From positions 26,412,001-26,476,000 of the forward strand of contig OX359246.1 of NCBI GenBank assembly GCA_947179485.1: a stretch of 64,000 nt of DNA. The letters run 5' to 3'. How positions within the stretch are numbered: the first letter of the stretch is position 1; the number at the start of each line of letters is the position of its first letter. The stretch comes from Allacma fusca (taxonomy: Eukaryota > Arthropoda > Collembola > Symphypleona > Sminthuridae). The notes beneath the pieces are model-generated. The model was given only the letters and a program-made list of their open reading frames with translations. It was not told where the DNA came from and searched no databases. This document shows positions 12,931 to 58,243 of the stretch, piece by piece. A program made the position numbers and the translations under genes.

Positions 12931-13383
12931 CAGAGCTGCTTTTAGGTTTCAGGTAGTACCTGAAAAATACCCTCCGTGCTTTAGGGTTGGTTACAATTTG
13001 AAAAGGATGATGATTATCTGCGATCTTGTGCTGAATTAATCGCCGTTCGAATGCCTGGGTAAGCTTAAATTTTATTTTGTCTTTCTGATTGTGCTCCTTG
13101 TCACTAATTAATACAAATGTGCGCATTTGTAACTTATAAGTTTGCTCTGACAAAATACGTAAAAGACGTGTTTGGGTTCAGGTTCGGGTTCAAGTTCGGG
13201 TTGGGTTTGTTTTGAGATCTGCACATCATTTAATTTTCCCAGTGCTGGTAACCAACCAATACCTGATGCATAAATATCGCACAGGTGCTGCTGTTAAATA
13301 TATAAAAATATCAATCTGGTGTTTCAGGTGCCGGTCGGGTTCAGGTGCGGATCTTGATTGCTTGCTACCTGAAAGCAGCTCTG
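12931..13383. mobile_element. Non-autonomous hAT-like element with GGGTTC words (453 bp)
   Basis: The left end CAGAGCTGCTTTTAGGTTTC and right end CTACCTGAAAGCAGCTCTG are inverted. The flanks are CTTTAAAC (12923-12930) and TTTTAAAC (13384-13391), an 8-base duplication with one mismatch. Internal words GGGTTC, CGGGTT and AAGTTC cluster at about 13,168-13,210 and 13,325-13,355. Its first nine bases are shared with the element at 15,900. Confidence 0.78.
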
Positions 13384-13584
13384 TTTTAAACTCAAATTTA
13401 TAGATTAGATATAGACAAACACTTTAATCTTATTTTTAATGTTAGCTACAATGAACGACTTCTAACGATTAAACGTAGCTCGTAAAGTGTTCGGTGAATC
13501 AACAACTAGATCACAAAACAAGTTTATTGAATTTATGAAGTACCTACGGCGATTTAATAACAGCACGGGCATCAACTGACCACA

Positions 13585-14852
13585 AGCAATGGAACTGGTC
13601 CGAGAAAGAATTTAATCGTCGTTCCACACCTGGAACTCAATCCACCGGAGTTTGAAGAATTAGGATTTGTGCCATTCACCCTTATCGACACTCGAGATGA
13701 TTTTTTGGAAATGATGGCTGACACGAATCAGCAGCAGATTATTTCTCTGGACTATGAATTTCCCAAGGAGCACTCCTATTATGGTTCCAAAATTGAATAA
13801 GTAGTACTATTCAATTACATTTAACAATTTAACTGCAGTATACAAACATGTTTGTCTTAGTTTTTTGCAGGACTTATATCGTTGATCAAAGTAGGTACTG
13901 GCATTTAACTATGTTATTGGCCAGTTCGCCACACGAGGTGAGCTACTAGAATTTTTCGTTCCTAAAGTGATTGCAAACACAGACCTTTTGAAGAGATGTG
14001 TGGATGTTACGACTCCCTCGTGACTCAAACCAACTTCCAGAGTTCCGTTACTTCGGTCATCGACGTACAAGAAGTGTAGTTCTGGAAACTAAAGATGCCT
14101 GAAAATTGCTGTAAAACTTTGAAGAAATCGTTTTATAGCCATTTGATTGAGACAGGAAAAATCACAGGATAACTTTAACCTGGATGCAAAAATTCGACCC
14201 GAATGGGAGAAAAATGAACCAGTGTCATACAAAAAATTAGTGAATGATCTATTTAATCAAAACACGACTCGAATAGAAAAACTAGCTCAACTCACAGACT
14301 TTCGTGTCAGGCCTCTGAGAACAGTGGCAGAGTATGTTGCAAATGATACGCATTATTTGCTGAGCGCAGTTCGGAAGTTAACATTGACGGTAATAATAAA
14401 AACGAAACACGTTTGTCTGTTACTTCACAAACTTACTGACAATAGGTCTGCAAAGTGAACAAGTTTATAAACTATAAAAGACCAACATGTTTATCTCAGG
14501 CTTAAAACGTTCGTTTACAGTATAATGATTTGCAAAAATATGAACAGGTTTTTACAGCTAAATTAACAGTCGCTTTTGAAAAGACCAATACAAGCTCCGA
14601 CGTACATTTTGGTTGCAAACGTATCCCTCTTGTAAATGCATACCGGAAAAGCCATTAATGTACATAAGCAAGACATCCGATGTGGAATTATTCAGGAACA
14701 TTTACCTGTGGAGAGAAAAAACAGCGAAATACATGGATGAAATCCCAGACATTAAAATGAATCCGGATGAAATAGAAATATTAGCAAAACTCTCAGCTCT
14801 TCAAAATCTAACTATTGAAAAACTTGAAACAACTCTTGTACAACAAACTCAG
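13585..14852 (+). pseudogene. EXOSC10/Rrp6-like 3'-5' exonuclease fragments
   Basis: Pieces of a nuclear exosome RNase D-family nuclease in collinear order. About 13,585-13,800 encodes a segment containing PFTLIDTRDDFLEMM and the ExoI-like LDYE followed by EHSYYGS. From 14,150 to 14,390 it encodes a stretch ending in DFRVRPL and YVANDTHYLL, matching the Rrp6 ExoIII region (Y-x3-D) and its RPLPxE context. From 14,690 to 14,852 it encodes YLWREKTAKYMDEIP, like the start of the HRDC domain (WRDxxARxEDES), and ends at a GT donor. The ExoII part and several exon joins are missing and stops intervene. It lies inside the 6.3-kb hAT-like insertion, so a captured host gene is one reading. The family call is by motif only. 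Confidence 0.6.
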
Positions 14853-15899
14853 GTAAGTTTAATACACTCCAGTTTCGACGCATTGTAGCGATGGGCAACT
14901 ATGACAATGAGGTTAGCTTCATAAACGTATTCTTTTATTAGTGTACAAATGTTTCAAAACTACTTTTATCAGCACAGCTGATTCCAGTTGTAACTAATGA
15001 TGAAGTAACTCCTGCTTGTAAAATGTTTGTCAATACCAATAAAGGTTCCTGTCATTTGGTAGTCATTTGCATTTTCTTATCAACTGAAATCGAAACTTTG
15101 AAGGGTGTTCCACTAAGACGACTTGTTGAAAGAATTATGTCCAAAGCGTCACGAACTTGCGGCTTAAAAAGGTAGACATACATGTATGTCTTTAAACAAT
15201 TTAATACTTGATATAATGAATATAATTGTTACCTGATTCAAACGTGGAAGAATAAAGTACAACGGGCTCCAACGTGTGTTGCCTTGGTTTACTAAACCCT
15301 TTCCTGCTGGTCTTGAAATGGTTATACCAATATGGTGAAGAATGAAAGAACTGTTTCAATTTCTTAATATTCTAGATTAGTCCAGAAACAGCAGAATTTG
15401 CATTCAATTTATTATCAGCTGCATTAGGTGACAATAACATGTCAACTTGATAATATCACGTTTGGTCCATTTTTAGGTCTTCATGGGCAGTGGTGAGAGA
15501 ATCTACAGACGGTGTCAATTGATGATCTTCAAGGTTTGCCGTCAGATCAAAGAATTCGTCGAATTTCTCCTATTCATGATCACTATCGTCTTCCTCCTCG
15601 ACAGCACACAGTACGATATATGGCAAATCATTTTCAAAATTGAAAGCTGCTAATACATTGCTGGCGTTGTCTCCAACATCAATTGTAACCTGTCAGTAAA
15701 TAATGTAGTTGTATTTGTTTTTAAATTTTTTCTAGACAAACATGTCTGTCGTAATAAATAAAATTGATCTCTTCTTTGGAACAATACGAAAGGTGTATCG
15801 AAGCACCTCATCACAAAGTTCTTATACCTGGGCCTGAGTGCTGTTTTTCGAAAGGACGAAACCAGAAGGGGAAATTACGTATTTTTCAATCGTTCGAAA

Positions 15900-17198
15900 C
15901 AGAGCTGCGTTCAAGTCAAGTTATTTTAGACAACTTGACTTGAACTTGACTTGAACTTGACTTGAACTTGACTTGAACTTGAAAAAATTGTCTAAGCAAG
16001 GTATCCGCACTTGTACTTGATGAATCAAGTTTCTCAAGCAACTTGAGTATTCAAGTACTCGATTTTCAAGTTCATTTTATTGAACTTGATCATAACTTGA
16101 CGTTCAAGTTCGGCACATAACTTGACGTTCAAGTTCGGCACATAACTTGACGTTCAAGTTCGGCACATAACTTGACGTTCAAGTTCGGCACATAACTTGA
16201 CTTGAACGTGAACTTGAACTTGATTATTCAAGTACTTTTTTCGCAAATGAATAAACAATACTAAAAATTTTGTTCACACCTATTATAGTTAAAAATGGCT
16301 AGGTCGTGATTAGGATAAACTAAACGGCGTGCAGGTGATATTCTTTACTTTAAAATTGCTAAAACATTTCAAATACTTGATCAAATAACTGTAAACGTTG
16401 TAGTCCAACTTATTTACTAATTTGCACTATTAAGTTTAGAAATCGCATTACTGGCTTGTTCACATTAAGGTTGCACTCATCTGGTGAGTGTAACCAGCAG
16501 TTATATTCATAAATATTTGTCGTCGGTAATTTTGTTTAACCAATGTTGATTTATAAAGTTGTTCGTCTGCGCCATCATGTTTAATATCAGCAAAAATTAT
16601 TCTTAAATGAAATAATAAATTATTCTTAAACTTCTTCGTAGCTTCAGAACACGTGAAGTGAACAATTACTTCATTTTTATAATGGAACAAGAACCCCGAG
16701 TATCAAGAACATCTTTATAAAAAAATAAGACGGAAATTTTGATTATTCAAAATTCAAAGTATGGAAACAGGACACAAGAAATATTCTCGACCACTGGCCA
16801 CCGTGGAGGCGACTTTAATGTCGATGGAATGAAAACAAATACAAGGTTGTCATTATTATGATGATTGACGCCCAATATTATTTTTAGTGGGATGCAATGA
16901 TGCCACTAATTTCGCATTAGTTACATTGCTTTTCAGTGACAAAAACTCAAGTTATACTCATGTTTTATTCAAGTACTTCCATTCATTGTACTTGAACTTG
17001 ACTTGATTTTACAATCAAGTAATATATTTTTAACTTGAACTTGATCGAACTTGAACATGAAAATTCAAGTTAAAATTATAATTTCACTTGAACTTGATGT
17101 TCAAGTTTCAAGTTACAAAATTGTCTGCACTTGACTTGACTTGAACTTGATACGCACTTGAACTATTCAAGTTATACTTGAACTTGAACGCAGCTCTG
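15900..17198. mobile_element. Non-autonomous hAT-like element with CAAGTT/AACTTG words (1299 bp)
   Basis: Perfect inverted ends CAGAGCTGCGTTCAAGT and ACTTGAACGCAGCTCTG, flanked by GTTCGAAA at 15892-15899 and 17199-17206. Arrays of CAAGTT/AACTTG words run inward from both ends, at about 15,910-16,230 and 16,940-17,190, around a core without open frames. The inner part of the terminal repeat (GTTCAAGT) is the array word. It interrupts the minus-strand hAT transposase relic and is therefore younger. Confidence 0.93.
16091..16190. repeat. Four perfect 25-bp tandem copies inside the CAAGTT element
   Basis: The unit begins CATAACTTGACGTTCAAGTT and ends CGGCA; four copies run without a mismatch, followed by the start of a fifth. 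Each unit holds a near-palindrome of the CAAGTT word, so the word array has itself been recently amplified. Confidence 0.95.
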
Positions 17199-18857: not shown

Positions 18858-20070
18858 TAATTTTAGAAGGGTTTTGTCTTCATTTATAAAAACTTTTTTC
18901 GTTTCAATTGTTATTGTTTTCCCGCAATAACTACGCAGCGTCAGATATTTGGCAGCAAGACAAAATGGTGTCCGAATTAAAGCTCATGCACCGTCTCTGC
19001 AAACCTAAAAACACCTGTCGATCTACAAACTAAAGCACTGATACGAATGTCTAAGGGCAATTATTACGTACAGGATAAGTAAGAAAATCACTGATGCAAT
19101 TATCTATATGTATTTAAAGACTAACACGATTATGATACTCGGAGATGGGTCGAAGGTAGGGCAGAAAGGGGATGTAATAAAATTGAAGAACCTAAAATGC
19201 AATGATCATGACACAATTAGTTGGAGCTCTCCTGATCCTTGAAAGCTTCTGTGGTAGTGACGAGATTTTTAAAATTGTCGAAGAAAACTGAGTAAGTTGG
19301 GATAAAAAATGGTAAAAACAAAATCTAACTATGAATCAGTCGTTCTGATGAAGGTTAACTACTACATATACATTTTTTCTAGTAAATTATCGAATTGGCT
19401 TGATGGATAAATTGCGCGTGGTACAGTTCGATGTTATTATTTACAAATCAATTGTTGAAGAATTTTTTATTCAGTAAAAGAAAATGGGAAGAACTAGAGA
19501 AAGCTTTGAATACATTTATTTGAACAAGCAAATGCTGATTTCATCATGTATGTACGTACAGTAATTATTTCCCCGGTAACAGTTGGTGGCGCCCAGTCGT
19601 TCCACGAATGGTCGTATAGCAGTACGCTAAAATAATCGTAGACTTTATTGTTAATGCTCTGGTAACAATGGAGAGAATTCACTAACTGTAGGTGGTTACC
19701 TTGTTATTTACCTTGCTACATGTGCGACATGCAAGTCTGCCAAGTTGCCAAGTGAATTCCTTTACCATTGTAGTGAGAGCGATTAAAAATCCAGCGAAAA
19801 TAATAAATACATGTTTAAAAAAGTAAACGGCAAAGTAACAAGTAATCCGTATTTCACAATTCTTTGCTATTAAAATGGGCCAGAAACTTATCGAGAAGAT
19901 TATCACCCATCAGGAAAACATTCCTGAACCGCGCAACGTGCTTAGTCACTAACATTTGTAACGGAGCATTGGTCATATAATTGTTTCACTCGCAACATTA
20001 CGAAATCCAAATTAACAGTAATTCGATGCATTCTAGACAGAACATTCCAGCACATGATCCTTATTAGCCA
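18858..20070. other. Non-coding spacer downstream of chemoreceptor copy 1
   Basis: About 18,858-19,255 matches 43,473-43,876 closely; after that the two units differ until about 19,955-20,070, which matches 44,029-44,142. The stretch 19,256-19,954, private to unit 1, holds no recognisable gene or element end. Confidence 0.6.
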
Positions 20071-21876
20071 GACCTGGAATTCAAGTTCAAGTAAAACTTG
20101 ACAAGTTCGGGTCAAGGTCAAGTTCAAGTCAAGTTCGGGTTACAAGTTAATTTGAACTTGACACTGAAATCTCAAGTTCAGGTCAACATTAAATTTGAAC
20201 TTGATTTTAAGGCTCGAATCATTTTCACGGTCATGTCTTCATCCAGACTTTACATCAATACCATGATCAAGCTCGGATCAAGTAACTGCAAAGCCATGAA
20301 CTTGACTTTTCTTGGTCAAGTTCCAAGCAATAGCTTCCATGGTGTTTTTTCTTCTGTGTTTAATTTTTGCTTAATCTTTGATTGGAATAATCATATTCTA
20401 ATTTAATTATTTTAAAAAAACAACTTGAAAATGAGCACAACTAAAGAATCTCGACATTGCGAAAACGATGCTGATACTGGAAGTCAAACCCAATCGAGTA
20501 TTCAGAAAAAATGGTGGAAGAATCAAACATTTCACATTTTGGGATTATACAAAAACATACAGCTGCAAACGTCTATTTTTATCATTCATTACATATTCGA
20601 AATTTTGTATTGTAGCAAATAAGCCAAAATAAAATCTCAGATAATTGTCTAGCCATTCTATTCACAAATATATATACAATTCTATAACTTGGCATTCATT
20701 TTCATGGTCAAGTTCATGGTCATGGTTTATGTTGAAATTCATGGTCAAGTTTTATTCATGGTCAAGTTCATCGAAATTAACTTGATTGTGTGATGTAATG
20801 AACCGCCCTGGTTATTATCTGTGCTGAGTAATAACGGCAGGCTCAGATACAAAAATACTGGGAATAAACTCGTTATATTTATTCAATAAAACCCAGAATA
20901 GAATTAGTTATGGTTCCAGATACAATTTACCGGGAGGTACAACACAATTATTAATAAACTATACAATTGACGTCTCCCCTAGACTACTTATGTCGTTCCA
21001 ATTGCGTATTAATACCCAATCAATTTAATTACAGAGATCAATAACAATTTGAGATCGTTCTAAGTGGTAGGTCTACAAGATTACTGTTATATCATGTGTG
21101 TATGGTGCTACAATTAGTTACGGACTCATATAATTCCATATAAAATAAGTAAATACCATTTGGGATATTTGGGGCGAAGGTCTGATTTACCCCTGACAAG
21201 AATATCCCTGGAAGAAGTCCAGGCTTATTGTCTGTTAGCCCTACAGGACAGCTCTGCTCTGCGCCTCTAAACGAGAGCGTAGAACCTCTCCAGAGCTTTA
21301 ATACCCTACCCTTATAACACGGGAAAGATGGTGCTATAAGCAAATATATGCATTGGAAGTGGGCTTGGACTTCACAGGACACCACACAACCGAGAATTAA
21401 TGGCATACACGTATAGGACAGAATTTATTATTTAATATAGGCAATTAATTATTTAATATATGAAAGAATAAATAAGGTAAGTAGTCATAGATGCCCAAGT
21501 ATGTACCCACATAAATTACCTCAATGAGCGTAATCGCTATAGGACAGGCGGCTGGAAAGTACCGCGTCTGAAAAATATAAAAAAGTCAGAGGGTAGGGAC
21601 AAATGTACATGTCTTTCCAAATGGCATAGTTATAAAATTATAACAGCGAAATAATAGAAGGGTTGTTACCTATAGAAGTATTCTGAGGGAAACAAATGTG
21701 GGCTGAGACCAGTGGGTAGGCAATTGAGAAAAGAGAATTGGGCTGGAGGTGATTTGTGCGTGGGAATGGCAAGATATATGGTAGGGTTATGAGGAAGACG
21801 AGAGAGAAGACTGTGCTGGGGTAGCTGCGCCCCCGCGAAAATCATAATATAGTCTGTGTGAGAGTCTGGGTGAGAG

Positions 21877-22569
21877 CATAGATGTAGGTTTTTTTCCCAC
21901 TCGCAATCTCACTCGCACTCCCATAGAGAAAAATCCACCACTCCAACTCTTGCCCACTCGTATTCTGTCTGAGAATGTAAAACTCCTACTCCTACTCTTA
22001 GCGCTAACTTCAAATCTCACAACTCCTACTCACCACTCGTGAGTTACTCAATGTTTTCATCGAAATATTTGCAAATATTAAGACAAGAATTTTCCTTATA
22101 ATTATGAAAGCGAATACTAAGCACAAAATAGTTCAATTTAATTTTATAGTCAAAATTCAATGACAAATACCGACGCAGTTTACAATAAATGACTATTTAA
22201 AATAACAATGCCTGGAAGTATGCTCAAGATTTATTTCTAATCTGTGACATGTCTTCCAATGCATGGCTTGTACATAAGTCGGCATTGCACACGATTGTTT
22301 GTTTAAAATTATGAAATTTTTCGAAGTATCCGCCAATCTTTTAGCGTGGCAATGCTTGCTTTATGCGATTAATACAATGGTAAGAGAAATAGTGAGTAGC
22401 AAAGAATGCTACTCCTACTCCTACCCTTTTTCTATGCTTCGATTTATACCACTCCAACTCATGAAGTTTTTGGCGCCTTCACTCCTACTCTTCACCTTGC
22501 TACTCCCCTGTGAGTATGAGTAGGAGTGTGTTGAGTGCAATCGTCACTCGCGAGTAGCCCCCATGTATG
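21877..22569. mobile_element. Non-autonomous hAT-like element with ACTCCT/CTACTC words (693 bp)
   Basis: It is bounded by GGTGAGAG (21869-21876) and GGTGAGTG (22570-22577), a 7-of-8 duplication. Termini are weakly inverted: CATAGATG on the left against CATGTATG on the right. ACTCGCACTCCC, ACTCCTACTCC and their complements fill both halves. Nested inside the 20,071-24,165 element. The ends are less certain than in the other families. Confidence 0.6.
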
Positions 22570-22799
22570 GGTGAGTGTGTGTGTAGTATAGGGACGAGGG
22601 AATTCCATTATGGTAAACACTATTTATTTATTATTTATAATTATTACAGCAATTATAACAGTGAACTTGATTACTCCGGTTCGTACCTTCCATTAAATAA
22701 GCCAAGTTGATGTTCGGGTCTCAAATTTCATAAAACAATCAAGTTCGTGTCGTTCAAGTGCGAATCGCTAGTTGAACCGAACTTGAGGCTAGGTCTGTT

Positions 22800-24159
22800 C
22801 AGTGCTCGGCACGGGTATGGGTAATACTCGGGTAAACGAGTATGGGTACGGGTATGGGTACTACCCGGGTACGAATTTTGTGTACCCGAACAATTCCGGG
22901 TACTACCCGGGTACGAATTTTGTGTACCCGAACAATTCCGGGTACTACCCGGGTACACTTTGGTCGGCTCAAAATTTCGGGTACGGATATGGGTACGGGT
23001 ACAAGGATTTCAAAATGGTTATATACCCACCGGGTACGGGTATAATAGTATCATTTACCCGTACCCGCGACCATTGTACCCGAGTATTTGGATATGTTTA
23101 GATTTGAGACATTTTGATGAATTTTATGAAAATAATAGAACTTCCGTTGGAAAATTCTGTCGGTATTTTTAGTAATTCTGAATGCATATAGCTTATTGTT
23201 AATACCTTTTTAACCTTACAACATGCAGTAACTGTATTTCAGACTGTGTTTCTAAAATATATATTTATATCTATAATATATATTTTTATGGAAACAGGTT
23301 TTAGGTAGAAGAATTAATAAAAAGACGAGGAATAATATCAAAATAGAAGTGGAGAATAGGATTCAACGAAATTTTATACAAAACGTCTTCATAATGTAGT
23401 AATTTGTTACTAATTGCATAAATAGTCTGATTGACACGTATGCACATGATACTTCATTAGCCACAATGAATACAATTTAAAAATTAGAGTTCCGATGAGT
23501 TGGATGGCAAGATATTTTTTGTAATTGGTAGTTGATTAGGAAACGGCGGATATTTGTAACAAGATATTAATGAGATACATGTACACAGAGCTACTGAGGT
23601 GAGAAAATTAATGTAAAAGGCCGAATAAATCAAGAAGTGAAAAATCGAGTCGCCAAGTCCCAAGCCAAAAATGCATGTACATATGGACTGGGTGCTATAA
23701 AATACTTCGCCCATCAGCCCATAAACAATCAAATGGGGATAATTTTACTTATTACTACTAATTAATATTACTTACTACTACGCTCTACTCTTCAATAAAA
23801 ATATATAATGTCAAATACCTCTCTAGCTAGTCAAAATTACCCACTCAGGTGTCATACATTATTACATATAACGTACTATGTATTACATTAAAACAAATCT
23901 GGATAAAGTACCCGGGTACGAGTACGGGTACGACACTGAGATAACCGAGTATGGGTACAATTTTCGAGTATTTTCGGGTACGGGTACAATACGGGTACAG
24001 GTACATGGATTGAGAGAACATTGCGGGTACGGGTACGAAAAATTTGTACACGGATATTCGGGTATGGGTACGGGTATAGATACCAGTTATTGAAATACCC
24101 CCACTTCGGGTACGGATACGGGTACGGGTACCGATTTTTCGTACCCGTGCCGAGCACTG
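22800..24159. mobile_element. Non-autonomous hAT-like element with GGGTAC words (1360 bp)
   Basis: Perfect 18-bp inverted ends, CAGTGCTCGGCACGGGTA and its complement, flanked by GGTCTGTT at 22792-22799 and 24160-24167. Arrays of GGGTAC/GTACCC run at 22,812-23,090 and 23,905-24,150, in opposite prevailing orientation, around a core of about 800 bases without a recognisable gene. It is inserted six bases inside the right tip of the CAAGTT element. Tyr/Gly/Pro-rich open frames here are products of the word array. Confidence 0.95.
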
Positions 24160-24582
24160 GGTCTGTTATTATTCCTTGCTGTGCCAAACACGTTAAGGAA
24201 CGTTCTGGGTAAGAATAATAAAATGAAGTTAACCCTATAATAAATAATGGGATCACACTTCAAGTAGATGATCATCGAAATACAAACGTAGATAAAAGTC
24301 AATGAACAACCCTTTGGCTCCCTGTGCGTTTTTCCTTTGTAGGGGTTAATTTTAGAATCCTACAACAACTTCCGTAATTTAAATAATAATAACTATTATT
24401 ATTGCATGTTACGGAAAATGATAACATGAAGTATACAAATAGAACTAAAAGAACGAATAAAGATGACAATCGTCTTTTAGTCTCAAAATACAAACTTATG
24501 TCTGAGCACCGTTTATTTTGACGATCATCCCTGAAATATCTCTCATTAGCAATGTTGTGACACATCTTTTGCTACCATATAG

Positions 24583-24840
24583 CTGGGGCCGGATTTTTGT
24601 AAACCTCCCTGGTAAAATAATTTCTGAATGTTTCCGCTGAATCTTTTGTCCCTAGAGACTAGAGAGGTCCTCAACGATCACAAAAACCCCTGCTGAAAGA
24701 ATGTCAACGCTTTTCAAAACCACTGTTGGTTAAACGTTTTCCTACAAGACTTCGAATTCCTGCTAAATAAAGTTAACAATCCAAAATTCCCTGTTGGTAT
24801 ACCAATTTTCTCTTAAGCACGCTAACGAATTACTCGTCTC
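24583..24840 (+). mobile_element. Truncated GGGGTCGG-family hAT-like MITE, unit 1 copy
   Basis: Begins CTGGGGCCGGATTTTTGT, the left end seen intact at 28,538 and 57,275, followed by the family's repeated phrases (CTCCCTGG, AACCCCTGCTG, CTCAACGAT). No right end is present. The same truncated copy sits at the paralogous place near 44,519, so it was there before the unit duplicated. Confidence 0.75.
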
Positions 24841-27990: not shown

Positions 27991-28183
27991 TGTAAGCACT
28001 TCAGCTCAAAAAGGCATGAGACGTAAATTAGGATAACCTTCAACTTCTGTATGATTAATAATGCATTTGGTTGTTGCCAGGACAAAATTAACAATTATGT
28101 TGGTAATTACTAGGGAGGGAGTATAGTAAAGCTAATAATTATACTTATACATAAGTAATGCAGTTACTTCCAAAATACTTACA

Positions 28184-29153
28184 AGTAGTATAAGCACCTA
28201 CTGTCACCATTATAAACTGTCACGTATCTTTTTAACATTACGCACTGTCACCTTTGCAAACTGTCACGTATCTTCTTAACATTATACGCTGTCACCTTTA
28301 TAAAAAAGAACAATGGAGTAACGTCAGTATGAAGGAACAAAATCGGAGACGCCACTTCAATTACAAATTTTATTACATCAAATACAATGGGGCAGTAAAA
28401 ATATGTAACTGAGCAGGCAACTGTCCAGAGGAAGGTAACTCTGGATGTCGGAAATTTACATTAACACTAGTTACCTATATCTAACCCAGCAAGGATGCCT
28501 GAAAGTGAGGACTTTCCACCTTTTTGCCTCCAGACGCCAGGGGTCGGATTTTTGTAAATCTCCCTGGAAGATTTTTTAAATTTTCCCTGCTGGTCAAGAT
28601 GTCCCTGTTCGAAGCAAGTTAAAAACTCCCTGTTGACAACAATTTTTGTAATACACCCCAACAAATTCAAAAATCCCTGCTGAAAAAAAGGTCAACAAAT
28701 TTGAAAATCCCTGTTGACCGAAATTCATTTTCGTAAATCACCTCAACAATGTCGAAAATCCCTGCTGTCAAAAATTATTTTCAGTGAAACACCTCAACGA
28801 TTTAAAAAATCCCTGCTGACAAAAATTGTTTTTGATAAAACACCTCAACAATTTTGAAAATCCCTGCCAAGAAAAGGTCAACAGATTTGAAAACCCCTGT
28901 TTGCAATCCCGTTTGAAAATTTCCCAGCTGAAAATGTTTTCCCTGGGAAGATTCTTCCAGTCTTCCTACATAAATCCGACCCCGGCCAGACGCACGCTAA
29001 CTCGAGGCTATCCTTCCACTACGTATGTACCTAGCGGAGCGCCATTTGATTACATGGCATTCCATGCGTAGGTAGATTGGCCGACAAGTGCCATGATGGG
29101 CTGATAATCGCGTTTAGTAAATCCCTTGCCGTTTTACAATATGTACTTGAGGA
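28184..29153 (+). repeat. Left terminal inverted repeat of the 10.6-kb element
   Basis: Matches the complement of 38,432-38,800. It holds an extra copy of the CTGTCACC...CACGTATCTT phrase near 28,235-28,300, a short private stretch at about 28,310-28,430, and a MITE inserted at 28,538-28,985. Confidence 0.8.
28538..28985. mobile_element. GGGGTCGG-family hAT-like MITE (448 bp)
   Basis: Left end CAGGGGTCGGATTTTTGT; right end ATCCGACCCCGG (one base off CCCCTG). Flanked by CCAGACGC at 28530-28537 and 28986-28993. The other arm of the 10.6-kb element, near 38,610, shows the empty site. The inside is a diverged tandem array of phrases such as AATCCCTGCTG and CACCTCAAC, about 60 bases apart. Confidence 0.9.
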
Positions 29154-31448: not shown

Positions 31449-32397
31449 CAGAGGGTGAGGCAACATCCTTGGACGGCGACGCCGGGCACCTTAACGTTTA
31501 GCGCGCTTTATTTACAGTTACATAATTTTGAAATTATGTTGATAATAGTATTAGCAATGTGTGTACTGAATATCAACTTGCTACTCCCGTCGATGCCTCC
31601 ACAAATAGCTCCGGAAGTTGAAGGTAGCAGATTAGAAGTTTCCAAGGCCCCGACATGGAAGATACTTTTATTTTTCCAATTGTCTGTATTAAAGCAACGA
31701 ATCCAAAAAAGTCCATAGGGCTGGTGTCCGGTGACTTTACTGGTATTTCCTTATTCTAAATTAAGGTTATACCAGTTTTCCGGTGGAGGTCTTCTGAATA
31801 TGCCCGGGTAAATCTGGCCGTGTGGCAGCTTGCCGCGTCGTTATGTACAAACACATTTGATGTGTCCTCTCCATAAATTCGTGGCACTTCCTTTTCAAGT
31901 AAGGGACTCAAAACGCGGCCAACATAGTAGGCAGCACTGACTTTAACTTTTGGCGCCACTTTAATGAAAGGTAGTACTCCCCTTGCAGTCATCTCTTCTA
32001 CGACCATGATCTTCGAGTCGAACCTCTCCTTCCTCTGGATCATGAGGGTGTCTCAGTGACCGTAATTGCCTTAGAATAATAAATACGGCGATCGGCATTG
32101 CAGTCACTGAAAACGAAGTATGTTGAGTCAAGAGTTACTACAAAATCCGATTTTTCCCATGACAGATTCTCCTCGTACAGCTTCCGGGAGTTGGCCCACT
32201 CCCGGAAAAGTATTTAATGCTACCTTCAACTTCCGGAGCTATTTGTGGAGGCATCGGCGGGAGTAGCAAGTTGATATTCAGTACACACATTACAAGTACT
32301 ATTATCAACATAATTACAAAATTATGTAACTGTAAATAAAGCGCACTAAAAGTTAAGGTGCCCGGCGTCGCCGACCAAGGATGTTGCCTCACCCCTG
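31449..32397 (-). mobile_element. Tc1/mariner element with about 185-bp inverted termini
   Basis: Ends CAGAGGGTGAGGCAACATCC and GGATGTTGCCTCACCCCTG, flanked by TA on each side (31447-31448, 32398-32399). Inverted similarity reaches from about 31,449-31,637 to 32,213-32,397, long for a mariner. The middle carries a decayed transposase. Confidence 0.9.
31756..32165 (-). pseudogene. Decayed mariner transposase
   Basis: The minus-strand frame 32043-31756 encodes the DDE core, with KVKVSAAYYVGRVLSPLL and VFVHNDAASCHTA, the second resembling the QDNAPxHxA motif with its catalytic Asp. A preceding piece at about 32,165-32,045 (FVVTLDSTYFVFSDCN) resembles the first catalytic region but lies in another frame. 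The amino-terminal helix-turn-helix is missing, so it is not functional. Confidence 0.75.
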
Positions 32398-43472: not shown

Positions 43473-43879
43473 TAATTTTAGAAGGGTTTTGTCCTTATTT
43501 ATAAAAACTATTTTCGTTTCAATTGTTATTGTTTTTCCGCAATAACTACTCAGCGTCAGATATTTAGCAGCAAGACAAAATGGTGTCCGAATTAAAGCTC
43601 ATGCACCGTCTCTGTAAACCTAAAAACACATGTCGAGCTACAAACTAAAGCACTCATACGAATGTCTAAGGGCAATTATTACGTACAGGATAAGTAAGAA
43701 AATCACTGATGCAATTATCTATATGTATTTAAAGACTAACACACGATTATGATACTCGGAGATGGGTCGAAGGTAGGGCAGAAAGGGGATGTAATAAAAT
43801 TGAAGAACCTAAAATGCAATGATCATGACACAATTAGTTGGAGATCTTCTGATCCTTGAAAGCTTCTGTGGTAGTGACG

Positions 43880-44027
43880 ACCAATATCTGTCCCTTATAA
43901 ACACTAATCCCTTATAAGCATAGTGTTATACATTGTGTAAATGGGAATCGGGACTGCGAATCCTGATCCCTTATATCGAGAAATCCCTTATAAGGGTATC
44001 CCTTATAGCGAGAGTTGACAGTACCAT
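43880..44027. mobile_element. pogo/Tigger-like MITE remnant
   Basis: Private to unit 2 at this point. The right end reads CTTATAGCGAGAGTTGACAG before TA, typical of pogo-like termini, and the inside has several CCCTTATAAG phrases. The left end is eroded (CTGTCCCTTATAAAC). Confidence 0.65.
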
Positions 44028-44518
44028 TTGTAACGGAGCATTGGTCATATAATTTTTTCACTCGCACCATTACGACACCCAAATTAACAGTGATTCGATG
44101 CATTCTAGACAGAACATTCCAGCACATGAGCCTTATTAGCCCTTGCTGTGCCAAACACGATAAGGAACGTTCTGGGGAAGAATAATAAAATGAAGTTAAC
44201 CCTATAATAAATAATGGGATCACACTTCAAGTAGATGATCATCGCAATACAAACGTAGATAAAACGGCAATAGACAACCCCTTGGCTCCCTGTGCGTTTT
44301 TCCTTTGTAGGGGTTAATTTTAGAATTATTATTACTATTGCATGTTACGAGAAATGATAAAATGAAGTATACAAGTAGAACTAAAAGAACGAATAAAGAT
44401 GACAATCGTCTTTTAGTCTCAAACTATAAACTTATGTCTGAGCACCGTTTATTTTGACGATCATCCCTGAAATATCTCTCATTAGCAATGTTGTGACACA
44501 TCTTTTGCTACCATATTG

Positions 44519-44790: not shown

Positions 44791-44999
44791 GAGGCACAAA
44801 AATCACGTCTGCTGAAGATTAAGGTGCATTTTGAGGAATGTGCGCCCATTTGCAGAATCATCATTTTCAGTCCCATCGTTGTTATATTTTAAGTTCTGTA
44901 TAATATATTTGTCTTTCTTTCATTGATGTAGAGAATTTCCACAGGTTCCGTTAGACTTGTAATTTGTATTTGGAATGTTTGTACAGAGCCGTTTGTCGT

Positions 45000-46985: not shown

Positions 46986-48376
46986 TAGTGCATCGCATGG
47001 GTTCAAAACAGTCGAACCTGTACCTGAACCTGGACCAAACCTTTGGGTACCTTAAAAGTGTGAACCTGTACCTGAAAATTTACCCATTTAACAGGTTCAA
47101 ATTTTTCGATCCTGAACCTGACCCAATTGCAATTTTGTAGTACCCGCACCTGATTAGTACCTGAACCTGAAAAAGTACCCAAAAGACGACCTGAACCCGG
47201 GTATTCTTGAACCGGACCTGAACATGTTTGGGTTAGTGCATCGCATGGGTTCAAAACAGTCGAACCTGTACCTGAACCTGGACCCAAACTTTGGGTACCT
47301 CAAAAGCGTGAACCTGTACCTGAAAATGTACCCATTTCACAGGTTCAAATTTTTCGATCCTGAACCTGACCCAATTGCGTTTTTGTAGTACCCGCACCTG
47401 ATTAGTACCTGAACCCGAAAAAGTACCCAAAAGACGACCTGAACCCGGGTATTTTTGGACCGGACCTGAATATGTTTGGGTACTTGAGAATCCAAACTTT
47501 TTTAAATTTTATCTTGTATTAAAAGTACAATTGGGTATTTGTAGTACAAAATATATTTAAAATGCATAAGAATGAAAGTTCACTGGTTCCTGGGACACCC
47601 TGCCATTGCTTTTGCGATGGAAATCATTTGGGAAGCTTGAATTCTCCGGCCTTTAACTTTCAATCAATGAACCCAAACATTTCAGGTCTTTTGCGATCAG
47701 GTTCAGGTCTTTTATGTGTTGCACCTGGTCCTGACAGGTAAAATCAAACCGGGTTTTTCTCTGTACCTGGTCCTGAACCTGAACCTGTACCCAATTTGAC
47801 GGGTATAAAATATTGTACCCAGAAAGGACCCAAAATTATTGGGTCCAAAATAAATGAACCCATACTGAACCTGAACCTGGACCTGAACCCAAATACCCGG
47901 GTGCGACCTGAACCCATGCGATGCACTAGTTTGGGTACTTGAGAATCCGAACTTTTTTAAAGTTTATCTTGTATTAAAAGTATAAATTGGGCATTTGTAG
48001 TACAGAAAATATTTAAAATGAATAAGAATGCAAGTTCAATTTTTCCTGGGACACCCTGCCATTGCTTTTCCGATGGAAATCATTTTGAAATTCTCCGGCC
48101 TTTAACTTTCAATCAATGAACCCAAACATTTCAGGTCTTTGTGATCAGGTTCAGGTCTTTCATTTGTTACACCTGGTCCTGACAGGTAAAATCAAAACGG
48201 GTTTTTCTCTGTACCTGGCCCTGAACCTGAACCTGTACCCAATTTCACGGGTATAAAATATTGTACCCAGAAAGGACCCAAAATAATTGTGTCCAAAATA
48301 CATGCACCCATACTGAACCTGAACCTGGACCTGAACCCGAATACCCGGGTGCGACCTGAACCCATGCGATGCACTA
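46986..48376. mobile_element. Non-autonomous hAT-like element with CCTGAA words, host of a self-insertion
   Basis: Inverted ends TAGTGCATCGCATGGGTTCA and complement, flanked by ATACTAGG at 46978-46985 and 48377-48384. Arrays of CCTGAA/GGTTCA words (CCTGAACCTG, TACCTGAACC) fill the outer parts. Without the inner insertion and its duplicated 8 bases the element is 688 bp. Confidence 0.95.
47234..47928. mobile_element. Second copy of the same CCTGAA element nested inside the first (695 bp)
   Basis: Same inverted ends as the outer copy, flanked by GTTTGGGT at 47226-47233 and 47929-47936. The outer element resumes exactly at the duplicated bases. The two copies are near-identical along their length with scattered differences, so the self-insertion is fairly recent. 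Confidence 0.95.
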
Positions 48377-48632: not shown

Positions 48633-49544
48633 CAGTGCTTCTGTTGGGGACAAAATTCTTGTCCCGTCCCCGTCCCGTCCCGTCCCGATATTTTTAAAAA
48701 ACCTTTGTCCCCAGTCCCGTCCCGACAATCGGGACACGGGGACAAAAACCATGTCCCCGTCCCGTCCCCAAAAGTTTATAAAAACGTTGTCCCCGGTCCC
48801 GTCCCGAAAGTCGGGACATGGGGACAAAAATCTTGTCCCCGTCCCGTCCCCAAACTTTTTAAAAAACGTCGTCCCCGGTCCCGTCCCGAAAGTCGGGACA
48901 TGGGGACAACAACCTTGTCCCCATCCCGTCCCCAAAATTAAAAAAAATATTGTACCCGGTCCCGAAAATCGTGGAATGTGAACAAAATTCCTGTACCGTC
49001 CCGATAATTACTGAAAACAGTTGTCGACATTCTCATATCGAAAATCGGAACATGAGGAAAACGTAAAAAAATATTTGTATCAAACACATAAAAAACGCAT
49101 TTATAGAATCGAGAAGATTCTTCCTGAACTTTTTGAGCAACAAGCCTCATTTTCTACAAAGGTGAAATAGTGTTCACAGAATAGTTTACTCATGAGCATT
49201 AAAGCTGAAACGTTATCCTTGTTCTGCTGTGCTTGCTCGTCCCGTCCCGTTATATACACGACCAAAAAGCATGTCCCGTCCCGAATATAGTGGGGACAAT
49301 TTGTTTTGTCCCCGTCCCGTCCCTGATATAATGGGGACAATTTTTTTTGTCCCCGTCCCGTCCCCGATATAATGGGGACATTTTGTTTTGTCCCCGTCCC
49401 GTCCCGAATATAATGGGGACAATTTTTTTTGTCCCCGTCCCGTCCCGAATACGACATGGGGACAATTATTTTGTCCCCGGGGACGTCCCGTCCCGGTCCG
49501 TCCAGTGTCCCGACGGGACGTCCCTGTCCCCGGCAGAAGCTCTG
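48633..49544. mobile_element. Non-autonomous hAT-like element with GTCCC/GTCCCC words (912 bp)
   Basis: Left end CAGTGCTTCTGTTGGGGACA; right end TGTCCCCGGCAGAAGCTCTG; two or three mismatches between them. Flanked by GTTCATAA at 48625-48632 and 49545-49552. The words CCCGTCCC, GGGACA and TTTTGTCCCCGTCCC repeat about every 60 bases with GGGGACA...TGTCCCC near-palindromes. Long open frames through it (GDGTGT-like repeats) are artefacts of the array. Confidence 0.95.
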
Positions 49545-49552
49545 GTTCATAA

Positions 49553-52624: not shown

Positions 52625-52765
52625 ACAATATCTGTAGCTTATTGTGTGCTTTTGGATATTTACAAAGGTAGATAATTCCTATAGTAGTAAAGTCAAAAGT
52701 GTTTGAGACAGTTTTAGATTCAGAGAAAGCCACAAAAAAATCCATTGTAGCCTTTTCAAAGTAAT
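52625..52765 (-). pseudogene. Relic of a P450 I-helix exon
   Basis: The minus-strand frame KATMDFFVAFSESKTVSNT followed by YLCKYPKAHNKLQ aligns with exon 6 of the P450s at 53,059 and 61,049 (TMVDFFVAGADTVTNT, YLCKYPEVQRKLQ). The AGADT core is degraded to AFSESKT, a few bases are inserted after it, and no other exon accompanies it. It marks a lost third member of the second P450 cluster or a stray exon duplication. Confidence 0.8.
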
Positions 52766-52996
52766 ATTCATTGATTTTGTAAAACATTTTTTAGTAATAA
52801 TAAATTACAGATTTGAGTGGGAAGGCATTTACAGCAACTTTTATTGTTTTTAATATAACTCCCTTGTGACTGCTAACGCATCAATCACGGAAAGCTGGGT
52901 TTAAACTTATCAAGTAATGCAAAACATTGGCAAGGATTTTGGGTTAACACAGTTCCAACGAGAATAATAATAATTAGATTGCGAAACCTGTTGAGT

Positions 52997-53002
52997 TTTA
53001 TT
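52997..53002 (-). terminator. Poly(A) signal AATAAA of P450 copy C
   Basis: Minus-strand GGAAATAAAACTC lies about 60 bases after the stop codon of copy C, a usual distance for a cleavage signal. Confidence 0.55.
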
Positions 53003-53058
53003 TCCTGAGTTGTACTTCAATAATTTTCAAAACAATGACAAACAATGTTACACGGAGA

Positions 53059-55359
53059 TTAATCCCGAACTTTCAGAACAACCTGGTAGTCATGGGGAAC
53101 CAGCATAAACCTTGGTACGCCTTCTAGTGATACATTCTTACTATCATCAGCAAGCCGGATACTAAATCGATGAAACATGTTGGTAAAATATAAAAAGAAC
53201 TCGTCTCTAGCCAAAGTTTCTCCCAAACAAGCGCGCTTTCCAAAACTGAATGGCAAAACAGCGTCGTGTTTCTTAAAAGTTTTCCCATCATTGCTAAGGA
53301 ATCTCTCCGGTTTGAAATTCTCCGGCTCGGGAAAGTACTCCTCATTGTGATGAATGGCATATAGATTCCCAAGGATCATGGTACCTTTCGGACAATCAAA
53401 ACCTTGTATTTTACTGTCCTCTTCAGCGCAACGGGGAAGCCCTAGCGGAACTAAAGACGCTAATCGACTCACTTCGGTAAATACAGCTTCCACATACGGT
53501 AATCTATAGGAGGGTAAGAATAAAAATTGTATATTGAACAAATGTACGGCCTAAGGTTTGTTCCAGGGGGCGCTATATTACGGAGAGTACACTATATTCC
53601 TACACTTCATAAAAGCACTCTTTTCAAAGTCTAATCCAATAATGCGACCCACTTGTTTCTGTCTGCCAAGTTCGGATATCTGTTTCTTCCAACTACACTG
53701 TCAAGTTCGTCCTGAAGTTTCCTCTGCACTTCTGGATATTTGCAAAGATAGAGAATGGACCATAGTAAAGTGTTTGTGACAGTGTCAGCACCAGCAACAA
53801 AAAAATCCACCATAGTAGCCGTCAAAGACCGAACTGGAATAAAAAAATCACATTATGCAAACACTATCGAAAATAGCACCTTGCAAAGTTGTTTCATGTG
53901 AATCACATATCAAGATCGAACTGGAAAAATGCACAGTGGAAAAGCTAGCATAAATAATCATTTCAAAGAAAGTAAACCAAAAAGAATGTTGTGGTATGCA
54001 AATCCGCTCACCTCCAACAGACTCATGAAAACTAGAAGTAATGTCGGTGGTTTTGTTAATTTCATTCAAGTAGGAATCAATGTAATCCCTTGGAACGGAA
54101 TCTTCCGGAAGGGTCTTCTTATGCTGCTCAATGTAACCGTGAATAATGTACTCCATCTGAGTCTTCATTCGGGTCAGCGCGTCCCAGCCAGATAGGTTTG
54201 GTAGTAATTTTGCAACCGATGGGAACACAATCGCCAAAGGATTTTTAGCCGACTTATCCAAAAACCTTTAAATGCATACAGATACAAGATATATCACTGA
54301 AGAGGCAACATGGTGTACGGGCGCATGCTTTTGTACAGCACTTAGACCATTTTGCCTCTTCGACAACGATATATAACTTCAAGGTACATTTAATCTTTAA
54401 AATCAACACGGAAATGGTTCTGCAATGTATTTGAATTACTCTTGAATCAGATTAAAAACAGCCCAGAGTTTGGGATCATCATGCGTGTAACGGTTCCCAG
54501 ATGTGATCATCCATAGTGTATTCAAAACCGCCACTTGAAATGTTCGATCCAACGAGCAAGGTGTCCCTGCTGATTTTGAAAACGTTGAAAGTAATTCATT
54601 AACTTCATTCATTATTATGTCCTCTCCGATGCTTTTCCCAAAACCGAAATCCCGCAGATGGCGTAAGGTAAACCGTCGTTGATCGAGCCACTCCTGCCCA
54701 GAAGACACTATAATTCCTATATATATTTAAAGTATACTCAAGATTTTAATCAGTAATTTCCAGGAGGTGCACATGATTTGAAATTATTTTGAAACTTTTC
54801 AATTCTCATACCATGAGGACCAGAACGAGGTAATTCGAATGCTTCATTTGGAGGCCGAGCGTTAAGTTTCGCGTCGTTCAAAACTTCCCGCAATATTTTT
54901 ATATCGGAAATGATGTATGCACTGTAAAATGAGGAGTCTTACAATTAGCTATGATCAATTTATTTATTGGGGTTTCTCAAAGTTCACATTTTCCCCATCA
55001 TTATTAAGAATTAGAATTTGTAACTTACGGATTTGGTCCAAGTTGGATTTTGAAAACATTTCCATATATTTTCGACCATTCTTGCAGTTTCCTATGGCCG
55101 TTCATTCCCAGCTGAAGGGTATTTCCGATTATAGGGAATGGAAAAGGCCCTTTTTACAAAAATTTGGTATTAAATCAATATGCTTCGTAAGTATAACATT
55201 TTATTATTTTGTTGAAACACGAGATCTTCTACTGTGGATGGTTAATTATTTATTAATGCATATATTACCATCAGGGTAGTTTTTCCCATTCCTTTTGAAT
55301 AAGGTGTAGATAACAGCTCCCAGCACAACTGAGAGCAGGATGCCTGTCAGAGAAATCAT
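53059..55359 (-). CDS. Cytochrome P450, CYP2-clan type, copy C (7 exons)
   Basis: Exons on the minus strand are 55359-55269, 55149-55029, 54921-54812, 54716-54440, 54265-54012, 53833-53653 and 53503-53059; all GT-AG, in frame, 492 aa. A short signal anchor (ISLTGILLSVVLGAVIYTLF) precedes the linker GPFPFPIIGN. The I-helix is FFVAGADTVTNT with Asp at 301, ExxR is E355-R358, PERF 410-413, and the haem loop FSFGKRACLG 430-439 with C437. Intron positions match copies A and B, so all four share one ancestor. Unlike A and B the acid-alcohol pair is intact, so an ordinary monooxygenase is expected. ER membrane protein; substrate unknown. A poly(A) signal lies just downstream. Confidence 0.92.
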
Positions 55360-57266
55360 TGTGACTAAAATCTTTTGCTGTCCGTAGCCAAAATTTTTGA
55401 ACTAGCACTAACTTTGTTGCAATTAGCTTGATTTGTCTCACAGGTATGGAGAAAAATAATGATTTCAGTCTTAATTTTCAATAAGTGTTATATCATTCTG
55501 AACCAAGGTTAATGTGGGGTTCCTGGCTTACATGAACAAACAATTACGTCCTCTTTCAATTTACACAGCACTACTTGCTTATAAGGCAAGAATTTACCTG
55601 GCAACTGGAAGGACTACATGTGTTGTTAGTGCTGTAATTCGTTCTTAGTTTTGTTGTTGCTGTGAGCGACGGGAGTTTAATTTGTTATTTTGTTGCAGTT
55701 GGATTATATTATTGTTTTGTTGTTATTGCATGTAATATTTGTTTTGTAAAATATTGTGGTTGTACATACATTATAGGACGAAGCTGAATTTCCACTCAAC
55801 TCTACTGTCTGTAACTTGAACCTCAATTTAAAAGCGAACATTCAGACGAACTTGATCTTAACTTGAAATTGAAAGCTCACTTTACTTGAGCCGATCAATA
55901 AATCAACCCCCGACGTAACTTGATCACTACTTTGAGCTCGGAAATAAACTTAAATTTCAGTTTATACTTTGTGTTAAGTGCAATGTACAAAATACAGAAT
56001 TTTAAATACAATATGCATTTACATAAATGGTTCTCTATAAATTTCGCTCCATTCTTGCTATGACAAATAGCACGTGCACTATCATAGTTAAAACGATTGT
56101 GGTGAAAAGTAATTTGACAAAATGCCTTATTTGAATTGAAACTGGTTTCTAAATTCAAGCTTAAACTTATATTTAAATTAAAACGTGAACATCATTCAAC
56201 TTTGAAACATTAGATCCAAACTTCATCTAATATCCGAATAAATCCAATCCGGAACTGACAACGACACCTAACATTGTACTGCACCAAGTTAAGTTGTTTT
56301 GATTTTCAATGTTGTTGTTTTGTTGAATGAACATAAATTAGTTGGGGGTTTGTTGATGCTTTTATAACAAAACTCCAACTACATTACAGCACTAAGTGCA
56401 TTAACGAAATATCATAGGATTGAAAAACGTATGTTAATCCATTCATTGTATCTTGTCTCTACCAACCTTCAAATATGCTCTTATCATGTGTAGCATTACT
56501 TCAAAAGTAGCATGTAAAAACATTCAGAGTGCATTATGAACATTTCAAGGTCTTGTGTACTCTAGATATTTATTACGCGTACAGATTTTGTTCATGTTGT
56601 ACTGCTATTTATAAGTATCTGCACAAGCAAGTAGCAAATCATTCTCACATTATCATTCTTCTTCTCTAATTCTTCAAGTATTTAATTAATTCTATCATCG
56701 TTTATCTGCATCATAGCTAGCTTTGTAAGCTTTTTGTGATTGTTTAAAAAAGCTGTCGTGACACCGATCACAGGGGTATAGTCTTAAAAAAAGTCAATTT
56801 TTATAACTAATAATTGTGAATAAAGGGAATGTTGTCAAGCGCGTTTTGCATCTTCTGTTGTCCAAATCAATGTCATAAAGTTCTTTCTGCGATGATATTG
56901 AACTTGTCCGTAAAACCTGTGTGACTGGCTGCAAATATTTATGGAAAATTTGATGAGTCTGCGTGTGATGAGTCACTACCGCAATAAAATGTATCCATGA
57001 AAAAAGGGTCAGGAACCAAAATCAGGGGGACAAAAATTATCTCCTTCCAGTACCTTACATAGCAACTGCCTCATAAAAGACGCTTTTGTTACGTTGAAAC
57101 ATTGCGAAAGAGCTATGCATCCCCATCTGGGGAAGTAAAAATATGGTAACTTAGAACCCCGAAGGACGAAGTAAAACCGAACGAATACCTGAAGGTGATT
57201 GTCAGGCGGAAACAATTCACTCCTATGCATGCTCTGCAGATCCAAAGAGATAGGCTCCTATCACAT
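55360..57266. other. Spacer between P450 copies C and D, first part
   Basis: No gene. About 55,790-56,270 contains scattered AACTTGAA and TGAACTT words and may be a very old CAAGTT-type element without recognisable ends. Confidence 0.45.
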
Positions 57267-57274
57267 AATATTTG

Positions 57275-58243
57275 CAGGGGTCGGATTTTTGTAAATCTCC
57301 CTGGAAGATCATTTCTAAATTTCCCTGCTAAATCTTATTTCCTTGCAGGGAAGTCCGATTTTCAAAATCCCTTTTGGTTGATAGTTTCCCTACGTCAAAT
57401 TGGCCAAAATGGGTCCCCTTAAATCCCTTGTCTGCACAACAAATAGGAATGGGACTGTTCTGGTCCGGACCAGAAATTTTGGTCCGTTCTGGTCTGTTCC
57501 ATGGTCTGTTCCGGTCTGTTCCCTGGTTACGAAAGGACCAAATGTATCTGGTCCAAGAACCTTGATAGACCAATTAAACCTGGTCCAGCTCAAAGAACAG
57601 ACCAGAATGTTTGGTCCTATGTTTGGCCCAGACCATTTGGAACGTTCCAGCATACATTTCAAATGGTCGGACCAGATTCGATAGATAAACCATTTAAGTA
57701 TTTCCAATTCCCGCGAATTACAATTTTCAGAGCTTCATTCGTTTTCATTTTACTGACAATTTTACACTTTGTTTCAAATAATAAAATAAATTACTCAAAA
57801 CATTATCTAAATTGTCAAATGCTTGCATGTTGTGATCCTATAATGAACCTGTTCGGTCCTAATGGTCTGGTCTGTTCTGTTCCGGTCTGGTCCGAGTTAT
57901 TTGGAGGAACAGAACTTATGTTCCTGTTCCAGCAATTTGTACGGACCAGATGGTTCCGGTCCTACGGTCTACAATACCTTATGGTCCTGGTCCTACACTG
58001 AGAACAGATCAAATGGTCTGGTCCAGGCTCAAGGACCAGACCATTCCAAGAAATCCTGGAACATTCCGGAACAGTCCCACTCCTAACAACAAATGCATCT
58101 GAAGCACGCCAACAAATTTCAAAATCATAGACAAAAAAGGTCAACGAAGCTGCAAAAAAGAAGCGCTTTGAGATTCTCCCTGCCAGAAATAGTTTTTTCC
58201 CTGGGAAGAATGTTCCCGTTTCCTCATAAAAATCCGACCCCTG
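57275..58243. mobile_element. GGGGTCGG-family hAT-like MITE with nested element (969 bp)
   Basis: Ends CAGGGGTCGGATTTTTGTAA and AAAAATCCGACCCCTG; flanks AATATTTG (57267-57274) and AATATTTA (58244-58251), a 7-of-8 duplication. Without the nested 642-bp element and its duplication it is about 319 bp, similar to the 448-bp copy at 28,538. The word GGTCTG inside belongs to the nested element, not to this family. Confidence 0.9.
57444..58085. mobile_element. Non-autonomous hAT-like element with GGTCTG/TGGTCC words (642 bp)
   Basis: Ends TAGGAATGGGACTGTTC and GAACAGTCCCACTCCTA, one mismatch apart. Flanked by ACAACAAA at 57436-57443 and 58086-58093. Arrays of GGTCTGTTCC, TGGTCC and GGACCAGA fill both sides of a small core (57,700-57,840). 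Confidence 0.95.

Follow-up and report, generated by a model that had tools for sequence, protein, structure and literature searches.

In this study we analyzed a 64,000-nucleotide stretch of the genome of the springtail Allacma fusca (Collembola, Symphypleona, Sminthuridae; contig OX359246.1; hereafter the window), which contains a panel of short transposable elements whose ends are filled with copies of a short repeated word. Their membership in the hAT superfamily, which an initial annotation had proposed, is supported by their ends, an 8-bp target site duplication (TSD), the subterminal words and a decayed hAT gene that has the same plan of ends and TSD. We consider it probable that the panel consists of nonautonomous hAT elements and that the arrays are multivalent docking sites for zinc fingers, grown by tandem duplication. 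Seven of the eight loci in that annotation carry CAG/TAG ends, an 8-bp TSD and word arrays, the array being weak in element A, and the eighth, at 21,877 (J in Table 1), is only a candidate. Additional features identified here are element G2, element G around H, the decayed element I, the nested pair E1 and E2, and an uninterrupted target site at 44131.

The ends were sought by a scan made without knowledge of the array words, which required [CT]A[GA] ends, a terminal inverted repeat (TIR) of 12 nt with at most three mismatches and a flanking 8-bp repeat with at most one mismatch; ten first-order Markov shuffles of the window served as the control. The scan returned 16 pairs, 8 of which had no more than one TIR mismatch (starting at 5000, 12931, 15900, 22800, 46986, 47234, 57275 and 57444), while none of the ten shuffled windows contained a pair of this quality. 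At the loose setting the shuffled windows yielded 2-8 pairs, and with at most two mismatches 0-2 pairs. Element F, with two TIR mismatches and an 8/8 TSD, was accepted for its longer end similarity, and seven pairs were judged to be due to chance (starts 16252, 28007, 37952, 38323, 53033, 57787 and 58430). G2 was added by a relaxed scan that had no shuffled control. Element C was missed by the blind scan and rests on the comparison of its flanks.

A CAG or TAG start is typical of hAT ends. Short TIRs of this type are present in elements A to I, the exceptions being candidate J (CAT) and the right end of G2 (CCG). The TSD is intact (8/8) in B, D, E1, E2, F, G2, H and I, 7/8 in A and G and 6/8 in C, in line with the 8-bp duplication first annotated. 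Together, a TIR, an 8-bp TSD and subterminal words make up the plan described for hAT elements (PMC4890040, PMC10368747, PMC3260210, PMC4763223), whose TIRs are given as 5-27 bp long (PMC3517528). Among 11 TSDs, T occupies position 2 in seven and A position 7 in five, with both in four (12 of 22 slots, p 0.02), and the composition leans to the target preference nTnnnnAn reported for Hermes (PMC10368747). The initial annotation spoke of MITEs, a term for short, noncoding elements of high copy number; in size, elements A, E, F, G, G2 and H range from 319 to 912 bp, and B and D are 1299 and 1360 bp long.

For element C, a copy of the target without the element is present in the window. The left flank of C terminates in CCTTATTAGC, and D lies astride its right end: the TSD of D, GGTCTGTT, is composed of the final six bases of C followed by TT, which places the insertion of D after that of C. 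With D removed, C is followed by TTATTATT and then by CCTTGCTG. A paralogous segment at ~44027-44264 aligns with these joined flanks, reading CCTTATTAGC-CCTTGCTG with no element between them and with a single TTATTAGC. Thus C arrived with an 8-bp duplication that later decayed to 6/8. The larger paralogous segments, 18945-24300 and 43560-44300, are usable as natural controls for insertions. Element C also carries an insert of ~1.86 kb (20804-22663, limits set by eye), for which a convincing target duplication was not found. Within it lies candidate J, whose TIR matches at 7/10 positions and whose TSD, 7/8, stands in low-complexity flanks.

Nesting provides a further record of insertion. E1 and E2 are identical at 650 of 686 aligned bases and represent one family, E2 having inserted into E1 and each copy having its own 8/8 TSD; we considered a tandem repeat at this locus and rejected it in favour of this self-insertion. 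The ends of G resemble those of G2, whose interior is the longer of the two (own sequence of 448 versus 319 bp), with word blocks among the differences. Two more left ends of the G family lie at 24583 and 44519 (CTGGGGCCGG and CTGGGGTCGG); matching right ends were not found for them, and they apparently derive from one old insertion within a duplicated segment.

The arrays are dense in most of the elements. The chosen word, the commonest hexamer of each element or a rotation of it, is present in 53 copies in B and in as few as 5 in G and K (Table 1), against a mean of 0.2 to 1.7 for the same word in 300 shuffles of each element. In B, C, D, E2, F, H and J the count also exceeds the highest value that any hexamer reached when the element itself was shuffled 60 times. 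Across 1277 sliding windows of 200 bp, with AT-rich and two-letter hexamers excluded, 44 contained at least seven copies of one hexamer and all 44 overlap B, C, D, E, F or H; in five shuffles of the whole window the highest count was 5. Windows with 5-6 copies occur additionally in I, G2, the insert in C and candidate K (55751-56000), as well as beyond any element at 251-550, 9351-9550, 28101-28400 and 43801-44150. The terminal location of the arrays was likewise borne out, since the middle 30% of the element holds 11 of 209 words in the ten elements A, B, C, D, E1, E2, F, H, G2 and J.

In four elements, words lie in tandem blocks. In B, whose halves hold 31 and 22 exact hexamers, many of them head to tail, Tandem Repeats Finder identified a 25-bp unit repeated 4.4 times (16091-16201) and an 11-bp unit of two words repeated 4.6 times (15932-15982). 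Units of several words were also found in D (42 bp x2.4), F (82 bp x3.6 and 41 bp x5) and G2 (51 bp x3.5), the two ends of F differing in the length of their blocks (82 and 41 bp). The best word periods were 5.2-5.4 in B, C and F and 6.0-6.2 in D, E1 and H, values that lack a null and are inflated by the tandem blocks. A spacing of words by half a turn of DNA was considered and left as weak on both grounds. The arrays of D, F and H are traversed by open reading frames (ORFs).

The initial annotation had described the words as inverted between the two ends of an element, and our strand counts do not agree with this description. For each of ten elements (A, B, C, D, E1, E2, F, H, G2 and J), we compared the better of the two inverted arrangements with the better of the two same-strand arrangements, E1 and E2 being copies of one family. 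The same-strand arrangement was ahead in nine and tied in A (4/7 each). Clear cases are F (27/31 versus 16/31) and G2 (10/10 versus 6/10), and the margin is a single word in E1 (12 versus 11), E2 (11 versus 10) and J (7 versus 6). These counts indicate that each end generally has words of either strand, F and G2 being clear same-strand cases.

Nor is the word private to a family, as had been suggested. B and C have the same chief word, TCAAGT (53 and 21 copies), which lies behind the unlike ends CAGAGCTGCGTT and CAGACCTGGAAT. Similarly, TCAGGT is the commonest word in A and a chief word in E (15 and 14 copies in E1 and E2), behind the ends CAGAGCTGCTTT and TAGTGCATCGCA; in E, the same repeat in its rotated form GGTTCA ranks above it. 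Conversely, A and B have CAGAGCTGC in common, with the first 9 nt the same and 11 of 12 end bases matching, and carry words one transition apart (the ratio TCAGGT:TCAAGT being 7:1 for A against 0:53 for B; Fisher p 1.8e-8, a nominal value as copies inside an array are not independent). The initial annotation had named one end joined to unrelated arrays as a finding that would refute it, and this was realized in part: A and B do share an end, but their words differ by one letter. A run in A at 13174-13203 reads GGGTTC AGGTTC GGGTTC AAGTTC GGGTTG, so that variants of RRGTTC adjoin one another.

Table 1. Elements, candidates and the uninterrupted target site in the window.
Feature	Position	Strand	Size (bp)	Ends or TIR	TSD	Words
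Element I, decayed autonomous hAT	5000..8062	+	3063	CAGGGGCTAAAC/CAGGGGCTAACC	ATTAGTAC 8/8	GGTACA x6
Element A	12931..13383		453	CAGAGCTGCTTT	CTTTAAAC/TTTTAAAC 7/8	TCAGGT x7, GGGTTC x3
Element B	15900..17198		1299	CAGAGCTGCGTTCAAG, 16 nt identical	GTTCGAAA 8/8	TCAAGT x53
Element C with later insertions	20069..22797		869 counted as own sequence	CAGACCTGG/CAGACCTAG	TTATTAGC/TTATTATT, 6/8 with D set aside	TCAAGT x21 in own sequence
Candidate J, within insert in C	21877..22569			CATAGATGTAGG/CATACATGGGGG	possible, GGTGAGAG/GGTGAGTG	GAGTAG x10
Element D	22800..24159		1360	CAGTGCTCGGCACGGG, 16 nt identical	GGTCTGTT 8/8	CGGGTA x34
Element G2	28538..28985		448	CAGGGGTCGGATTTTT/CCGGGGTCGGATTTAT	CCAGACGC 8/8	TCCCTG x10
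Uninterrupted paralogue of the target of C	44131..44148	+			one TTATTAGC, then right flank	
Element E1, outer	46986..48376 (46986-47233 + 47937-48376)		688	TAGTGCATCGCATGGG	ATACTAGG 8/8	TCAGGT x15
Element E2, inner	47234..47928		695		GTTTGGGT 8/8	TCAGGT x14
Element F	48633..49544		912	CAGTGCTTCTGT/CAGAGCTTCTGC	GTTCATAA 8/8	CGGGAC x31, GGGGAC x27
Candidate K	55624-56397			inverted, TTAGTGCTGTAAT		TCAAGT x5, sparse
Element G, outer, split by H	57275..58243		319 own sequence	CAGGGGTCGGATTTTT at both ends	AATATTTG/AATATTTA 7/8	CAGGGA/TCCCTG x5
Element H, inside G	57444..58085		642	TAGGAATGGGAC/TAGGAGTGGGAC	ACAACAAA 8/8	TGGTCC x14, TGGTCT x9

Element I is the one element in which coding sequence of hAT type was recognized. 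It contains a DUF4371 domain at 5818-6891 (Pfam, E 8e-24), followed at ~7558-7811 by a C-terminus like the hAT dimerisation domain, interrupted by a stop and a frame change and detected by tblastn from P0009 and P0026. These two relatives, which a search retrieved, contain the hAT dimerisation domain PF05699, and P0026 shows a weak match to Hermes chains (35 residues, E 5e-4). Two ORFs of I were submitted to Pfam together with a single stretch of each of A, B, C, D and K and a pair taken from the insert in C, and the stretches from outside I gave no hAT match. Likewise, tblastn with five DUF4371-type proteins matched no element besides I. Over 99% of its length, the ORF at 5818-6891 matches the unnamed A. 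fusca protein P0001 with 100% identity, and other parts of P0001 match the window at 5478-5570 (94%) and 13564-13797 (100%). The public gene model for P0001 seems to join the transposase of I with sequence that matches the window at 11.5 and 13.6 kb, a fusion that is likely an annotation artefact.

We propose that the transposase would cut at the outermost ~12-17 bp, the TIR, and that the arrays behind it would, by analogy with known hAT systems, serve as docking sites for N-terminal zinc fingers of the BED or TTF type. Multivalent docking of this sort could gather a transposase oligomer on both ends regardless of the strand of the words. Tandem duplication of blocks of several words would lengthen and homogenise the arrays, so that a one-letter change in the word could spread array-wide; the multi-word units, together with the greater length of G2 than of G, suggest that the arrays expand in blocks. 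The elements themselves would be mobilised in trans by unseen autonomous partners. Several observations weigh against this proposal. The word counts of A (7 versus 11), E1 (15 versus 16), G, G2, I and K stay within the any-hexamer maximum of the 60 shuffles, and both strand and spacing of the words vary between families. Furthermore, an autonomous element bearing any array word was not found in the window. Element I has six GGTACA words, five of them near its 5' end, and, being decayed and having few words that lie mostly at one end, it is no obvious partner of the array families.

The arrays might instead be by-products of replication slippage or of gap repair after excision, with no role in binding and with words that are simply whatever came to be duplicated, and the clear tandem blocks of B, D, F and G2 accord with such an origin. 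We regard this explanation as unlikely, since the same word recurs in both halves of A to F and H, if weakly in A, since words occupy both strands in most of the elements, which goes beyond slippage alone, and since subterminal repeats are reported to be bound in Hermes and Ac and are held to be helpful in Tgf2 and Kat1. It is very improbable that the panel represents regulatory DNA of the host, a satellite or simple repeats arising by chance in place of transposons. GC-rich tandem repeats are common in genomes, yet the seven families A to F and H have a TIR and an 8-bp TSD, one target is present in uninterrupted form, and nested copies carry TSDs of their own. Bare arrays were found at 94 and 22 loci in viral contigs, and a TIR/TSD scan of these 116 loci gave two pairs, neither of which enclosed the array. 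The exact A/B-type and D-type end patterns were absent from both the viral and the genome contigs, two collections poor in eukaryotes. For A to F and H this explanation by non-transposon DNA is refuted, a verdict that does not extend to J and K.

VANDAL elements are Mutator-like elements of plants. In Arabidopsis, their VANC proteins target short motifs in noncoding tandem repeats, which are reported to vary among related elements and to evolve with their proteins (PMC5735166), and the arrays described here could by comparison be landing pads for an anti-silencing or regulatory protein encoded by the element. The short, tandem and family-variable nature of VANC motifs is matched here by blocks of several words and by word differences between sister families. 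In contrast, VANC21 signals are described in introns and in intergenic and terminal noncoding sequence (PMC5735166), while the words of the springtail elements are concentrated at the ends, a placement that binding to the ends would predict. An accessory gene was not seen, although no dedicated search was made, and among the stretches from inside elements given to Pfam only the DUF4371 of I was significant. We therefore hold a VANC-like role to be quite unlikely and retain docking of the transposase as the preferred explanation.

The relations among the words raise a more tentative possibility. Using one chief word per family, eight of them distinct and each selected by us as the commonest hexamer, and ignoring rotation and strand, the mean pairwise distance was 2.11, compared to 2.64 (sd 0.17) for random hexamers matched in GC content, and 0.45% of 2000 random sets were as close. 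There is thus some support for the array words being divergent versions of one another, which we take as a lead, short of a result. The pattern RRGTWC is fitted fully by A, B, C, D, E and I (four distinct words: AAGTTC in B and C, AGGTTC in A and E, GGGTAC in D, and GGTACA of I, which is a rotation of AGGTAC); G and J miss it by one base and F and H by two. Random hexamers fit fully in 2.7% of cases and are one off in 28%; RRGTWC was chosen after inspection of the words and its p value is nominal, while the distance test is independent of the pattern. It is conceivable, if doubtful, that an ancestral docking word near RRGTWC radiated within one springtail genome, becoming array-wide by tandem turnover, with ends kept alike (A/B) or swapped (B/C and A/E) and zinc fingers changing stepwise with the words. 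If so, the panel would preserve, as a natural record, the base-by-base shift of a protein-DNA code, and the families would be insulated from one another's transposase.

Co-divergence of word and transposase, which the initial annotation also envisaged, is a plausible hypothesis. That a zinc finger binds the word repeats of hAT elements is known; the way in which a transposase could change jointly with tens of word copies is not worked out in the literature matches listed. Searches on hAT subterminal repeats, on word/transposase co-evolution and on springtail hATs returned no description of this panel among the matches listed, and a search on the array words themselves no transposon title among those listed. 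A and B, with the same cut ends and one-letter words, together with B/C and A/E, with shared words and unlike ends, provide a ready test of specificity. In addition, annotators may mistake such arrays for satellites or coding sequence.

Other features of the window are less closely related to the panel. Candidate K has inverted ends and sparse words, and a clear target duplication was not found for it by eye. A short AT-rich stretch at ~306-467 lies between inverted ends that resemble TAGTGTTGG and TAGGCATTGG; it contains ATATCG/TATCGT words, 6 of them in 200 bp, and is a possible further hAT-like element. A small insertion at 43880-44027, with CCCTTATA words and an end like TACTGTCAACTCTCGCTATAAGGG, is by eye missing from the paralogue near 19,260-19,955; we take it to resemble a miniature inverted-repeat transposable element of the pogo/Tc1 type, and similar ends (TACAGTAAAATCTCTTTATAACGG) are present at 9373-9562. 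An inverted repeat at 31453-32394 has arms of 177 bp that are 95% complementary and separated by 588 bp. The window also holds a reverse transcriptase of the non-LTR type that has an endonuclease, as well as a P450 fragment.

The closest comparison among known systems is with hAT elements whose subterminal repeats have been studied. The BED domains of Hermes, a housefly hAT element, are reported to bind AAG(T/C) repeats, 17 in the left end and 14 in the right (PMC10368747). Like the elements described here, Hermes has an 8-bp TSD, a short TIR and many short words per end in an asymmetric arrangement, and the word of B and C contains AAGT. Unlike them, it is autonomous and has four-base sites in ends of ~450 bp, where B has 31 + 22 hexamers in multi-word blocks. 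In the Ac/Ds system of maize, the Ac transposase binds AAACGG repeats, the terminal 200 bp of Ac are required for normal transposition, and nonautonomous members share the TIR and in part the hexamers, given for Ds as 3 or more, again with an 8-bp TSD (PMC3260210). That system has one word, whereas the window holds several families with related words within 64 kb.

Similarly, the two ends of Tgf2, a fish hAT element of the Tgf2/Tol2 type, carry 17 and 18 subterminal repeats. Such repeats are termed a defining hAT feature in the report on Tgf2, in which forms of the protein devoid of the N-terminal zinc finger show poor binding to the end (PMC4890040). Tgf2/Tol2 elements differ from the springtail panel in being autonomous. 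Kat1 of Kluyveromyces also has its own hexamer, AATTCA/TGAATT, repeated six times, which its authors speculate may aid cleavage; it differs in being domesticated at MAT and in having few repeats, with a polarity that differs between its two ends (PMC4763223). Among hAT-related proteins of the ZMYM1-like/DUF4371 type, a decayed example is encoded by I, whose ends are poor in words. VANDAL/VANC elements resemble the panel in having family-specific short motifs altered through tandem repeat formation and differ in that the motif is bound by an anti-silencing protein (PMC5735166). The published hAT words (AAGT/C, AAACGG and AATTCA) themselves differ between systems (PMC10368747, PMC3260210, PMC4763223). 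The initial annotation had called the arrays far longer than known hAT repeats; we find them denser but not of a new kind: arrays of this kind are ordinary for hAT elements, and what is unusual here is their density and the presence of sister families whose words differ by one letter.

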